Shown here: in pieces, positions 10,202 through 37,115 of the stretch | Layout of the letters: each line of letters starts with the position of its first letter | How positions within the stretch are numbered: position 1 is the stretch's first letter | Assembly: GCA_029862185.1 (NCBI GenBank) | Contig: JAOTXX010000009.1 | Location: forward strand, 1 to 64,000 | DNA: 64,000 nucleotides | Reading direction: 5' to 3' | Source: Myxococcales bacterium | GTDB taxonomy: Bacteria; Myxococcota_A; Polyangia; Polyangiales; Houyiibacteriaceae | The notes under the pieces: generated by a model | What the model was told of the DNA's origin: nothing | Databases searched by the model: none | What the model saw: the letters and a program-made list of their open reading frames with translations, nothing else | Translations under genes and position numbers: made by a program

Positions 10202-10288
10202 GGCCGAGTGGCGGAATTGGCAGACGCGCCGGATTCAAAATCCGGTATTCGCAAGAATGTGTCGGTTCGAGTCCGACCTCGGCTACCA
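10202..10288 (+). tRNA. tRNA-Leu (anticodon CAA)
   Basis: Class II cloverleaf of 87 nt. The acceptor GGCCGAG (10202-10208) pairs with CTCGGCT, closing with a G-U pair. U8 and G9 follow, then a Leu-type D arm, the anticodon stem CCGGA/TCCGG with loop TTCAAAA (anticodon CAA), a long variable arm, and the T arm GTCGG-TTCGAGT-CCGAC. Discriminator A and an encoded CCA end the gene. The first structured repeat copy begins 24 nt downstream on the same strand. Confidence 0.95.
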
Positions 10289-10312: not shown

Positions 10313-10501
10313 CGGGACACGGCGGAACGCGATGCGAGGGTTCGACGGACGGGGCGGCTTGCAAGCGTGGCCGGATGGACTGGGGGCGCGGGGCCACGCA
10401 AGCCGCCCCTCGGAGCTCGCGCCAACCGGCGGTGGTTGCTGTCATGGCCGTTTGTCACTCACACGCCGCCGAACCCCCACATCGCGTTCCGCCGCGCCCC
10501 T
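10313..10501 (+). repeat. Structured ~190-bp dispersed repeat, copy 1
   Basis: The outer arms 10320-10348 and 10466-10494 are inverted repeats matching at 26 of 29 positions. Hairpin A inside is GCGGCTTGC + 4-nt bulge + GTGGCC against GGCCACGCAAGCCGC. Hairpin B is CAACCGGC against GCCGTTTG, with one mismatch. Between A and B lies CTCGGAGCTCGCGCC, identical in all three copies. No open reading frame or transposase is present. The other copies are at 36720-36906 (+) and 11216-11405 (-). Confidence 0.85.
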
Positions 10502-10717
10502 CTGTGAGTCGATGAGAGCGTCGACGTTTGTATCATCGCGAGTGTTACTGCCAGTGCCGGTGCCTCGGGAACCGAGACTTTCGTCACAAGCGTCTCAACG
10601 AGAGCAATGGAAAGGGTACCGGAGTGTTTGTCCCTGGTGGACGAAGTCGCCCAGTTCGGATACGCACTGTTTGTGGGTTGTCCTCGATTTCTCAGTCTTC
10701 GATCCGGCGCTGCGGCG

Positions 10718-11140
10718 ATGCTCGTCCTGTTGTGCGCTTGCGGGGAAAGCGACGGCCGACCTTCGAGTGCTGGCAACACAGCCGTGCGAGTCGAGTGGCC
10801 GTTCCCCGTGCATCCACATCGCGTGGAGTCATACACCTGCTGCGGTGAGTCGGTTGAGAACTGCTTGTCTGAGCTGCTATCGGGGGAGATCGAACGATTA
10901 GTGTTCGGGCCGAACAATCCACCTGTCTCGGAACCTAGCGAGGTCACGGAGATGTTCATTGATCTTCCGGATGACTCGCGGTGCGGTGTCGCACTTTACA
11001 TCGACTGCGGAGGCGAGATCCTGTGCACGGCGTCACAGGTCTTCGACGTTCCGAGCGAGGGACTCGTTAGCGTAGACATCGTAGGCATCTGCAATCCGTT
11101 TTCCTCGGAGCAGGCGGACGCGTGCCAACGAGCGAAGTGA
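10718..11140 (+). CDS. Small cysteine-rich putative lipoprotein
   Basis: 140 residues starting at an ATG that gives a short hydrophobic signal ending in a lipobox-like 'LLCACG', followed by a Ser/Gly-rich linker. The mature part holds several cysteines ('YTCCGES', 'NCLSE', 'RCGVALYIDCGG', 'EILC'), suggesting disulfides in an exported protein. I do not recognise the family. There is no convincing ribosome-binding site and the frame stays open upstream to 10607, so the start is uncertain. It is flanked by inverted copies of the structured repeat, with no other gene between them. Confidence 0.5.
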   Translation: MLVLLCACGESDGRPSSAGNTAVRVEWPFPVHPHRVESYTCCGESVENCLSELLSGEIERLVFGPNNPPVSEPSEVTEMFIDLPDDSRCGVALYIDCGGEILCTASQVFDVPSEGLVSVDIVGICNPFSSEQADACQRAK

Positions 11141-11215: not shown

Positions 11216-11405
11216 AGGGGTGCGGGAAAACGCGTCATGGGGTGGAGTCGACGTAGCGAGTGACAATCTGCAAGACAGCAACCACCGCAGATTGGGCGCG
11301 AGCTCCGAGGCGAGGCTTGCGTGGTCCAAGCTTTCAAGTGCAACCGACCACATTTGCAAGCCGAGCCGTTCGACGTAGCCCCGTGTCGCGTTTTCCCGCG
11401 CCCCG
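11216..11405 (-). repeat. Structured ~190-bp dispersed repeat, copy 3 (diverged, inverted)
   Basis: On the minus strand this aligns end to end with the other copies but with different stem sequences. The outer arms (11217-11242 and 11379-11404) match at 23 of 26 positions and carry GCGGGAAAACGCG instead of GCGGCGGAACGCG on both sides. Hairpin A closes with GTGGTC/GACCAC instead of GTGGCC/GGCCAC. Hairpin B is CAATCTGC/GCAGATTG, perfectly paired. CTCGGAGCTCGCGCC and TTGCTGTC are unchanged. It begins 13 nt after the 3' end of the kinase gene at 11419. Confidence 0.8.
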
Positions 11406-11418
11406 GTTGTTCTACGAT

Positions 11419-13152
11419 TCAGCGCGCGGCGACGTGTTTTTCCATCAGCTCTTGCAGCTCTGACGGCTTCTCGTCTGGATCCTTGCCGTTGCGGCTCTTG
11501 TCGATGTCTTCGAGGAGCTCTCGGCACTCTGGCTTGTCGCGAAGGTGGTCGAGCAGCAGGCTCGAGGCGGTGCCGAAGGCGGTTTCGTAGCTGAGTGCTT
11601 CTCCGACGCGGCTGGCAATTCGTTCGCGGCCCGTTTGAAGGTCATGCTCGAGGGCCTCGCTGTATCGCTTCAACTGAGCGCGAAGCTCCTCGATTTGCTT
11701 GCGGCGCTCTGCTGCGGTCTCTTCTTTCGAGCGTGCGCGACGTTCGTAGTCGCGCGCGACCTCCGCGAGCACGTCGCACTGAGCACGGGCCACGCCAAGC
11801 GCTTCGTATCCGCGGCGGATACGCTCAACGTTGCTGCCCGCCAAGTTCACTTCGGCCTCGGCCGATTGTTGCGCTCGCTTGGCACGCTTGAGCTTGAGAA
11901 TCAGCTGGCTCAGCGAGTCGCGCTCCGACGACGCGTCACGCAGGGCGCGCGATTCCTCTCCGGCAAGATCTTCGACCTTACGTCCGATTTCAGCGCGGAG
12001 CGCTCGCCCGCGCTTCTCGATGGTCTCGAGCTTCTTGGAATGGCTTTCGAGCTCGCCCTCGAGCCGGGACGCCCGTGACGCGAGCTCCCAGATCTGGTCC
12101 GACGCGCCTTGCACCTCGGTTGGCGCGTTTCCGTCGGGGTATGCACGCGCGACAGCTCGCAGGAAGTTCGCCGCGGTCCGGCTCCACTCGACGACGCCTG
12201 GCGTCTGAGCCGGTGGCGGCAGGGGCGGCGCGACAGGAGCCACATCCGTCGACTGGTCCCATTCCCGCGAGGGAAGCGTGCGCTGCATCTCTTTGAGCTC
12301 TTCTTTGAGATGGTGCCCGTCACGAAAACGATCTTCCGGCTTCTTCTCGAGTAGCTTCAAGATGATGTTCTCGGCATGCTCCGGAATGTCCGAGCGGTAC
12401 TTGCTGGGCTTTGGCGGGGTCGCCGTTCGCTGCATGTCGAGCAGCTCGTCACGGTCGCCCGAACGGAACGGAAGGCGTCCGGTCAGCATCTCGAAGAACA
12501 GAACCCCGAGTGCATAAAGATCGCTCGACGAAATCGCATCTTCGCCTCGCGCTTGCTCCGGCGACATGTACTCTGGGGTGCCGAACACCGCGCCCTTCGG
12601 AGCGAGGCGCGGGTCACGAGTGAGTGCAGCGAGACCGAAATCCAAGATCTTCACGAAGTCTTTTCGGCCGCCGCGCGCGGTGACCATGATGTTGTCACTC
12701 TTGAGATCGCGGTGAACGACACCGAGGTCGTGCGCGCGAGCGAGCGCTGCAGTCATCTGCTCCAAGATGTCGACTGCCCGCGCGATGGGCATCGGGCCTT
12801 TTGCGATCTGAGACGAAAGCGAATCTCCGATGAGGTATTCCATCACCAGGTAGAGCTCGCCTTCCTCCGTTTCGCCGACGTCATGAATGTCGACGATGTG
12901 TGCGTGGTCGACCCGGTTGGCCGCTCGGGCTTCTCGCACCATCCAAGCGCGCAAATGCGTTTCCCCGCGAAGGTCGGGTCGAATCAGCTTCAGCGCAACG
13001 ACACGGTCGATGAGCACATGGCGCGCTCGGTAAACGACACCCATGCCCCCCTCGCCGAGGAGTGATTCCAATCGATATCGACCCGCGACGACCTTCCCGA
13101 GAAGCGGATCCTTCGATTTCTTCGAGCGCGATGCTTTGCGAACAATCCCCAT
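11419..13152 (-). CDS. Hanks-type Ser/Thr protein kinase with C-terminal coiled coil
   Basis: 577 residues. The kinase domain covers roughly 25-285: glycine loop 'LLGEGGMGVVYRA', Lys in 'VALKLIRPD', catalytic loop 'VVHRDLKSDNIM', 'KILDFGLAAL', and 'GTPEYMSPEQARGE'. A proline-rich linker leads into about 200 residues of heptad-like coiled coil ending in a charged tail. No transmembrane segment is seen, so it is probably cytoplasmic. The ATG at 13152 has GGGGGAA just upstream; a TTG 30 bases earlier is in frame but weaker. It is divergent from another kinase at 13302 across 149 bp, and followed by structured repeat copy 3. Confidence 0.93.
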   Translation of the reverse strand: MGIVRKASRSKKSKDPLLGKVVAGRYRLESLLGEGGMGVVYRARHVLIDRVVALKLIRPDLRGETHLRAWMVREARAANRVDHAHIVDIHDVGETEEGELYLVMEYLIGDSLSSQIAKGPMPIARAVDILEQMTAALARAHDLGVVHRDLKSDNIMVTARGGRKDFVKILDFGLAALTRDPRLAPKGAVFGTPEYMSPEQARGEDAISSSDLYALGVLFFEMLTGRLPFRSGDRDELLDMQRTATPPKPSKYRSDIPEHAENIILKLLEKKPEDRFRDGHHLKEELKEMQRTLPSREWDQSTDVAPVAPPLPPPAQTPGVVEWSRTAANFLRAVARAYPDGNAPTEVQGASDQIWELASRASRLEGELESHSKKLETIEKRGRALRAEIGRKVEDLAGEESRALRDASSERDSLSQLILKLKRAKRAQQSAEAEVNLAGSNVERIRRGYEALGVARAQCDVLAEVARDYERRARSKEETAAERRKQIEELRAQLKRYSEALEHDLQTGRERIASRVGEALSYETAFGTASSLLLDHLRDKPECRELLEDIDKSRNGKDPDEKPSELQELMEKHVAAR

Positions 13153-13301
13153 CGTTCCCCCGTAACTAGTGGGCAAACTCAATGATAAGCAGGAACGAAG
13201 CGCAGCCCCAAGTGTTCCGCTCTGGCTGAAACGTGGAGTAAGCTGACATCAGGTGCCCGAGCTGCCTATCATGGAGGGGTCGGTCACTAACGGAGGGATG
13301 T

Positions 13302-35951: not shown

Positions 35952-36096
35952 GCTCTATCATCGATTCTAGTCCCGCAGGAGCCCCTGCGCCCGTGTTCCG
36001 GGTCCGGCTGGTTGCCCTTTTAGAACCGGGGTCCTCGATCGGCAAGCGCCCCCGTGCTGGTTGGACGAAGAGACGGTGTCGGCCCATCCTCCGGAC

Positions 36097-36708
36097 ATGA
36101 CCGAGGTCAAAATCTGCGGGTTAACCACCGTTGACGACGCACTGCGTTGCATCGAGGCCGGCGCCGACTCGATCGGCCTCAACTTCTGGCCGGCCTCTCC
36201 CCGATGCGTCGATGCTCGGATGGCCCGCGCGATCGTCGAGACCGGGGGTGATCATGTCCAAATGGTCGGGGTATTCGTCGATTTCAGCCGGGAGCAGGTC
36301 CGCGAAATCTTGCGCGAAACCGGCATCGGTTGGGCCCAGCTACATGGGGCAGAGCCGCCCGAGCTGCTCGCCGCGCTATTGCCCAATGCGTACAAGGCGA
36401 TCTCTGTGAAGGACGGCTCCGCCATCGTGCTCGCACGGAGCTACCCCGGCGGGCATATCCTCCTCGATGCCAGTGTTCCTGGCATGCCCGGTGGCACCGG
36501 CAGAACCTTTGACTGGGCGATCGCCGCCGAGGTCGCCAAAGAGCGCAAGCTGACCCTCGCCGGCGGCCTGACACCCGACAATGTCGCCGAAGCCGTGCGC
36601 GCGGTGAAGCCGTTCCGAGTCGACGTCGCATCAGGGGTCGAATCGAAGCCGGGTCGCAAGGACCCCAATTTGGTCAAACGATTCATCGACGCGGCGAAGG
36701 GCGCCTAG
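36097..36708 (+). CDS. trpF: Phosphoribosylanthranilate isomerase
   Basis: 203 residues. Third step of tryptophan synthesis from anthranilate (Amadori rearrangement). The N-terminal 'EVKICGLTTVDDALRCIEAG' carries catalytic C7, and the C-terminal 'FRVDVASGVESKPGRKDPN' carries the catalytic Asp and phosphate loop. The ATG at 36097 is standard for the family; a TTG at 36061 is in frame. It stands apart from other trp genes. Structured repeat copy 2 begins 11 nt after its stop. Confidence 0.94.
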   Translation: MTEVKICGLTTVDDALRCIEAGADSIGLNFWPASPRCVDARMARAIVETGGDHVQMVGVFVDFSREQVREILRETGIGWAQLHGAEPPELLAALLPNAYKAISVKDGSAIVLARSYPGGHILLDASVPGMPGGTGRTFDWAIAAEVAKERKLTLAGGLTPDNVAEAVRAVKPFRVDVASGVESKPGRKDPNLVKRFIDAAKGA

Positions 36709-36719
36709 CGCGCGCGTAG

Positions 36720-36906
36720 CGGGACGCGGCGGAACGCGACACGGGAGTTCAACGGACGGGGCGGCTTGCAGATGTGGCCGGATGGACTGGGGACCTAGGC
36801 CACGCAAGCCGCCCCTCGGAGCTCGCGCCAATCGGGGCGGATTGCTGTCTTGCCGATTGTCACTCACACGCCGCCGAACCCCCGCATCGCGTTCCGCCGC
36901 GCCCCT
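36720..36906 (+). repeat. Structured ~190-bp dispersed repeat, copy 2
   Basis: Outer arms 36727-36755 and 36871-36899 match at 24 of 29 positions. Hairpin A is GCGGCTTGC + bulge + GTGGCC against GGCCACGCAAGCCGC. Hairpin B is CAATCGG against CCGATTG, different from copies 1 and 3 but still fully paired. CTCGGAGCTCGCGCC and TTGCTGTC are conserved. It follows trpF directly on the same strand. No coding capacity. Confidence 0.85.
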
Positions 36907-36927
36907 GAATCCATATCCATTCAATAG

Positions 36928-37043
36928 GAGAACGGCTCGGGATGGGCAGCACAGGGATTGGGTCGAGCCTAGCCGTGGGTCGTCTTGAGGAATAGGGGGC
37001 GAGTGGGTCCCAATCCCGAGCACGACCGTCGCGAGCCGTTCTC
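36928..37043. repeat. Nested inverted repeats upstream of the amidohydrolase gene
   Basis: GAGAACGGCTCG (36928-36939) and CGAGCCGTTCTC (37032-37043) form a perfect 12-bp stem. Inside it GGGATTGGG (36954-36962) pairs perfectly with CCCAATCCC (37009-37017). An alternative pairing CTCGGGAT/ATCCCGAG (starting at 36936 and 37013) competes with both. The structure ends 72 bp before the amidohydrolase ATG. Only one copy is seen in the window. Confidence 0.7.
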
Positions 37044-37115
37044 TGATCGTATGGTGGACCGTTGCCATGGCCACCAGTGACGTCAGTGGTAGCGACGGAT
37101 TGGGGGATTCGCGGT

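Follow-up and report, generated by a model that had tools for sequence, protein, structure and literature searches.

One strand of a dispersed element of about 190 nt in a Myxococcales bacterium is folded, and it is close to certain that this fold is under selection. The family to which the element belongs is, or was, mobile, a conclusion that is well supported by filled, truncated, and empty sites in sister species. With modest confidence, we regard it as a family of non-autonomous mobile elements that act through their folded single strand, with RNA a more likely form of it than ssDNA. The usual description of dispersed palindromic repeats is one of double-stranded DNA whose folding as RNA is incidental. 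Here the sequence record itself names the folded strand, and the fold outlives nearly all sequence identity of the closing stem, P1. With such defined sequences, the RNA-or-ssDNA action of bacterial dispersed repeats, and their placement at gene ends, become testable.

The window, that is, the whole stretch of 64,000 nt that was analysed, contains three copies. They are listed below with the parts of copy 3 and with the scores of a covariance model built from the folded strand.

11217-11404, plus strand (inferred folding strand): copy 3; 203.5 bits on the plus strand, 34.0 on the minus strand
10314-10501, minus strand: copy 1; 179.8 bits on the minus strand, 25.1 on the plus strand
36720-36906, minus strand: copy 2; 190.1 bits on the minus strand, 29.4 on the plus strand
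11217-11243, plus strand: 5' arm of the closing stem P1 of copy 3 (27 pairs)
11378-11404, plus strand: 3' arm of the closing stem P1 of copy 3
11252-11307, plus strand: second junction arm of copy 3; outer pairs 11252-11257 with 11301-11307
11264-11271 and 11287-11294, plus strand: hairpin B of copy 3, in the second arm, CAATCTGC and GCAGATTG
11314-11362, plus strand: third junction arm of copy 3, GGCTTGC (11314-11320) with GCAAGCC (11356-11362)
11321-11326 and 11346-11351, plus strand: hairpin A of copy 3, in the third arm, GTGGTC and GACCAC, with a 4-nt bulge

Copies 1 and 2 are oriented opposite to copy 3, the folded strand being plus in copy 3 and minus in the other two. The structure of copy 3 is not a product of chance, because its fold is more stable than those of dinucleotide shuffles by 5.5 standard deviations, whether it is treated as RNA or as DNA, and it recurs in the window's own genome in about 28 copies according to BLAST and in 40 according to the covariance model. 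The initial annotation had described copy 3 as diverged in its stems with the pairing kept. Its outer arms, GCGGGAAAACGCG and the complement, are present as quoted and pair, as do the two arms of hairpin A, and copies 1 to 3 retain the fold through paired substitutions at all but one position. This exception lies in hairpin B, which is paired as described in copy 3 and in copy 2 (CAATCGG/CCGATTG), whereas in copy 1 (CAACCGGC/GCCGTTTG) it contains one non-standard pair (columns 117/142). The loop segment CTCGGAGCTCGCGCC had been regarded as constant; this is true of the three window copies, but other copies in the genome differ there, and a portion of the segment forms a covarying helix of its own (AGC/GCT, CGC/GCG, AAC/GTT).

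Covariation among many copies bears out the earlier suggestion that structure is selected. A total of 121 distinct full-length copies from the genus were aligned without structure information and compared with a null in which substitutions were re-dealt over the branches of the copy tree (20 simulations). This procedure follows the published R-scape idea but is not R-scape, and the copy tree is approximate, because copies within one genome may have recombined. Covariation was significant and nearly confined to the pairs of one consistent fold, as expected of a selected single-strand structure. The best covarying columns (29-163, 117-137, 42-96, 104-150, 8-184, 12-180, 37-155, 60-82, and others) are stem pairs, with 104-150 belonging to the short helix inside the supposedly constant loop, and 106-148 is the lone non-pairing combination above the largest null scores. 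Further copies thus keep the pairings rather than break them: across 49 diverse copies and 64 pairs, 95.7% of cells are paired, a value that is biased upward by deriving the structure from the same sequences. The counts of double-sided change are safer in this respect. Such change was observed at 44 of the 64 pairs, compared with 24.2 in shuffles, none of 500 of which reached 44, and with at most 23 when partners were slid. A U.G wobble enclosed by the second junction arm is fixed in all 49 copies, and the fold is kept in other genera and families. As the family is a dispersed repeat that is unstable at its loci, however, selected structure need not imply a function for the host at each locus.

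Which strand folds can be read from the pairs that were broken. In the sense of the neighbouring gene, 102 independent events led to A.C and 17 to G.U. An A.C mismatch in one reading direction is a G.U wobble when read from the opposite strand, which places the fold on the complement of the neighbouring-gene sense. Wobble is tolerated on this strand only, again as expected of a selected single-strand structure, and the polarity is also seen among events limited to single copies. The ratio of A.C to G.U is 66:10 at pairs that originated as GC and 28:6 at those that originated as AU. Strand-biased mutation was considered as the cause of this polarity and found insufficient, because the AU-origin excess runs against the substitution spectrum of unpaired sites, which predicts the opposite. 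It may nevertheless add to the A.C count of GC origin, as G to A changes are about twice as frequent as C to T changes in unpaired columns. The complement strand also forms P1 as one continuous 27-bp helix, obtains the better RNAalifold score (-189 vs -166 kcal/mol), and has the lower free energy in 45 of 49 copies with RNA parameters and in 48 of 49 with DNA parameters. Distant copies, from other genera and families, contain 27 G.U vs 7 A.C.

Within the window's genus, BLAST detected copies in 18 of 19 genomes, and in none of the 38 genomes outside it. The covariance model counts 0 to 45 copies per genome of the genus; these genomes are mostly fragmented draft assemblies, and true copy numbers are probably higher, because many copies sit at draft-contig ends (genomes G002, G005, G007, and G012). 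Public records that match an exact sequence pattern are, among the matches listed, myxobacterial MAGs, including Myxococcales bacterium SG8_38 and Polyangiaceae bins; among these matches the pattern found the window's genus only, which is a limit of the pattern and not of the family. Confinement of the element to one genus was dropped as an interpretation when covariance models later recovered it from other genera and families. A model of the folded strand (R1) identified copies in three other genera of the family (seven in G020, five in G030, and one in G023), and a second model (R2), searched on an order-wide sample of 115 genomes, extended the range to eight genera of the order, some of which belong to three other families. 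In these copies the P1 arms are only 35-56% identical to those of copy 3, near the level of unrelated GC-rich sequence, yet they pair over 20-30 bp, whereas the core is 52-64% identical and conserves GUGMCAA / UUGGCRCG, GAGG, CUUGCG / UGCAA, and CCGUC. Distant alignments are fitted to the model and hence lean towards it; the stronger argument is provided by the E-values outside the genus, which reach about 1e-26, together with the unrelated P1 sequences. No viral contigs carrying the element were found. Two genomes that are 100% complete (G016 and G018) contain one copy each (L366 and L367), which have about 343 bp in common at 87% identity and different neighbouring genes. The G020 copies (L347, L350, L352, L354, and L358) start with the GTAG tag that marks one REP super-family and follow a CATCCCA-like conserved stretch.

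The element is mostly placed at gene ends, in a fixed orientation. According to a simple codon-usage gene finder written for this analysis, a gene points at the folded-strand 3' end of 91 copies and away from it in 11, and none was called in 10. For 43 of these 91 copies, the distance from the stop codon to this end is 0-19 nt. Convergent genes border 48 of the 90 copies with both flanks readable; among the 63 copies that have a called gene on each side, these 48 are the convergent ones. A stop codon of a long ORF occurs within 60 nt of 59 of 115 copies on the folded-strand 3' side and of 11 of 103 on the other side, compared with 5.5% of random places. In the window, a kinase-like gene that runs against copy 3 (11419-13182, minus strand) has its stop codon 14 nt from the 3' end of this copy (11404), and copy 2 has its folded-strand 3' end about 11 nt beyond the stop codon of a plus-strand gene (36061-36708); that of copy 1 lies 28 nt beyond a tRNA gene (10202-10285, plus strand). 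An opposing stop codon also adjoins the folded-strand 3' side in other genera, at 13-104 nt in most cases, and in one facing pair (G057) the opposing stop codons are 32 and 20 nt away. The neighbouring genes are mutually unrelated and include those for GyrB, a tyrosyl-tRNA synthetase, and a carbon-nitrogen hydrolase.

Comparison of orthologous sites argues for mobility. Across sister species, the kinase-gene site of copy 3 is occupied by a full copy in G000, G004, and G006, by a truncated one in G011, G012, and G015, and is empty in G003, G007, G009, G016, and G018. The site downstream of the gene that precedes copy 2 is full in G000 and G005, holds a stub in G012, and is empty in most others. 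Copies that are 99% identical sit at unrelated loci, and truncated copies retain the folded-strand 3' end and miss the 5' end. No target-site duplication was recognised by eye at copy flanks. At several loci (L019/L012, L033, L006, L011, L123, and L167), a truncated copy directly precedes a full one and stops near column 49 or column 110, a pair of end points that recurs in several genomes.

Other repeats accompany the element. One, of about 100 nt and probably structured (GGCAGCGCGAGCCCGAAGGGCGAAGCCCGGCGC...GGGTGGGGGTGGGCGGG), occurs at 44 places in G000 (for example L059, 1501-1601); it stands 5' of many element copies after a linker and is also found alone. Another dispersed repeat, palindromic and about 150 nt long (GGAGAACGGCTCG...CGAGCCGTTCTCC), lies in the window at about 36905-37055 and at L002, L023, L071, L083, L272, and L280; several of its copies are nearly identical, and it is chained with the other two repeats in intergenic regions. 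An ORF for a lipoprotein-like protein of 177 aa (10607-11140) lies between copies 1 and 3, the 3' ends of which face outward. The tRNA gene adjoins the kinase gene in several sister species, with no such gene between them, and the ORF is possibly cargo caught between the two copies.

One strand folds into a conserved three-way junction made of the long closing stem P1, which is free in sequence, an arm carrying the U.G wobble (GUGMCAA/UUGGCRCG), and another arm that contains a bulge (CUUGCG/UGCAA). In the mechanism that we propose, this folded strand, more likely RNA than ssDNA, would be recognised by a trans-acting factor; insertion may be aimed at gene ends or tolerated only there, and copies cut off part-way would lack the 5' end of this strand. 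No mobilising enzyme was linked to the element within the window's genus, and a search of the region for a sigma-70-like promoter was negative. The element is also a candidate for a new structured-RNA family. No Rfam 15 family scored at or above its gathering cut-off, the best sub-threshold matches being long-hairpin miRNA models far below it; permissive thresholds gave nothing credible, and we found no description of the element in the open-access literature. More speculatively, and with considerable doubt on our part, it might represent a mobile element of a novel kind, in which a folded RNA (or ssDNA) some 190 nt long is placed antisense at gene 3' ends across the myxobacterial order. The machinery responsible would then differ from REP/RAYT, integron, retron, and group II intron systems, with the junction as scaffold and the flank past the 3' end as address.

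Several other explanations have to be weighed against a mobile folded strand. The element may serve the host as a 3'-end RNA that folds in readthrough transcripts of the convergent gene and blocks or trims antisense transcription into the neighbour, as an insulator, processing site, or stabiliser, its copies having spread but being retained for use. The fixed orientation and stop-codon distance, the enrichment between convergent genes in several families, and a wobble that is polar even among single-copy events fit this function. However, orthologous genes in sister species often lack the element, copy number ranges from 0 to 45 within one genus, and no U-tail follows P1, and we consider such a role rather unlikely. 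Somewhat less probable still is an oversized REP-like palindrome moved as ssDNA by a Y1 (IS200/RAYT-type) transposase in trans. REPs likewise lie within 20 bp of the 3' ends of convergent ORFs, in facing pairs and with G.T pairs (PMC3733652), Y1_Tnp genes above cut-off are present in 12 of the 19 genomes, and the copies of one other genus bear the GTAG start. Yet the element has three arms and about 190 nt instead of 20-40 nt, is found at none of 13 Y1 loci, and reaches 42 and 39 copies in genomes without a Y1 match, which are, however, themselves incomplete at about 80%. Furthermore, the one Y1 locus that was inspected closely has its own inverted repeats; these contain GGGGACACTCTCC and flank the transposase gene (L334, 1908-1974 and 2690-2756). 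Short palindromes of the GGGGACAGTCCCC type in other intergenic regions (L271, L313, and L316) are perhaps the repeat family of this Y1 gene.

A DDE transposase is the partner in a further, and in our judgement improbable, scenario, where the element forms a structured terminus of an insertion sequence of the ISAs1 type and the dispersed copies are its MITEs. In G023 (two loci) and in G062, which belongs to another family, the element is located 155-173 nt upstream of a divergent ISAs1-like transposase gene (Pfam DDE_Tnp_1 and DDE_Tnp_1_assoc; the two G023 proteins are 69% identical), in the same orientation each time. These copies, which are not located at called gene ends, are possible source copies. 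However, the regions in G023 share 81% identity over 1.9 kb, which leaves two independent cases at most, no element occurs on the far side of the transposase, and no such transposase is near the fetched copies of the window's genus. The element does have terminal inverted repeats, small size, no ORF, and multiple copies, as MITEs have; an ISAs1-like gene lies beside these three distant copies only. That it is an ordinary double-stranded MITE, whose arms were kept complementary by gene conversion or hairpin-templated repair and not by single-strand selection, seems very improbable. P1 is a near-perfect inverted repeat and related copies have arm variants in common, but such correction should treat the strands equally, whereas wobble is strongly polar; the internal arms covary as well, and the U.G pair never varies among the 49 sequences. 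We see equally little prospect for a relic of a retron-like or group-II-like retroelement, in which reverse transcription left 5'-truncated copies. The retained 3' ends would agree with this origin, and the reference list of one paper (PMC6868368) points to msDNA-like repeats dispersed in the myxobacterium Nannocystis. Against it, the reverse transcriptase PF00078 is absent from 17 of the 19 genomes, the window's own included, and Rfam yielded no match.

The proposed folded mobile element resembles several known systems in part. Retron msr-msd and the msDNA-like repeats of Nannocystis are folded RNAs bounded by long inverted repeats, and the latter are dispersed in a myxobacterium. The element would share these traits if its folded strand acts as RNA; it departs from retrons in the reverse transcriptase, missing from most genomes, and in matching no Rfam model. 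Integron attC sites lie just past a stop codon, and their folded active strand is antisense to the gene. The element has the same position and polarity, but neither RYYYAAC/GTTRRRY (R'/R'') boxes nor cassette arrays were seen in the flanks read, and its neighbours include core genes such as those for GyrB and tyrosyl-tRNA synthetase. With ISAs1 (H-repeat) insertion sequences it is connected by the adjacent transposase at three loci, an arrangement not seen in the window's genus. REP/BIME repeats of the GTAG and CGTC families, associated with RAYT, adjoin the 3' ends of convergent ORFs, form facing pairs, and tolerate G.T stem pairs (PMC3733652). Placement at 3' ends, often between convergent ORFs, is common to both, whereas REPs are simple hairpins of 20-40 bp with a GTAG or CGTC tag, which the three-armed element displays only in G020, and none of the 13 Y1 transposase loci is flanked by it. 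YPAL/RU-2 of Yersinia (168 bp) and ERIC/RU-1 (127 bp) are small dispersed intergenic repeats with stable RNA folds and filled or empty sites, and the effect of ERIC on the adjacent mRNA depends on orientation (PMC2229807). Size class, dispersal between genes, predicted RNA fold, and site occupancy are all paralleled here; the three-way junction, 27-bp closing stem, tight post-stop placement, and order-wide fold set the element apart, as does the target duplication, not seen here. We know of no sequence relation between the two. Although it fails testable defining features of REPs, retrons, and attC sites, the element would appear, by anatomy and placement, to work most like YPAL/ERIC and REP.
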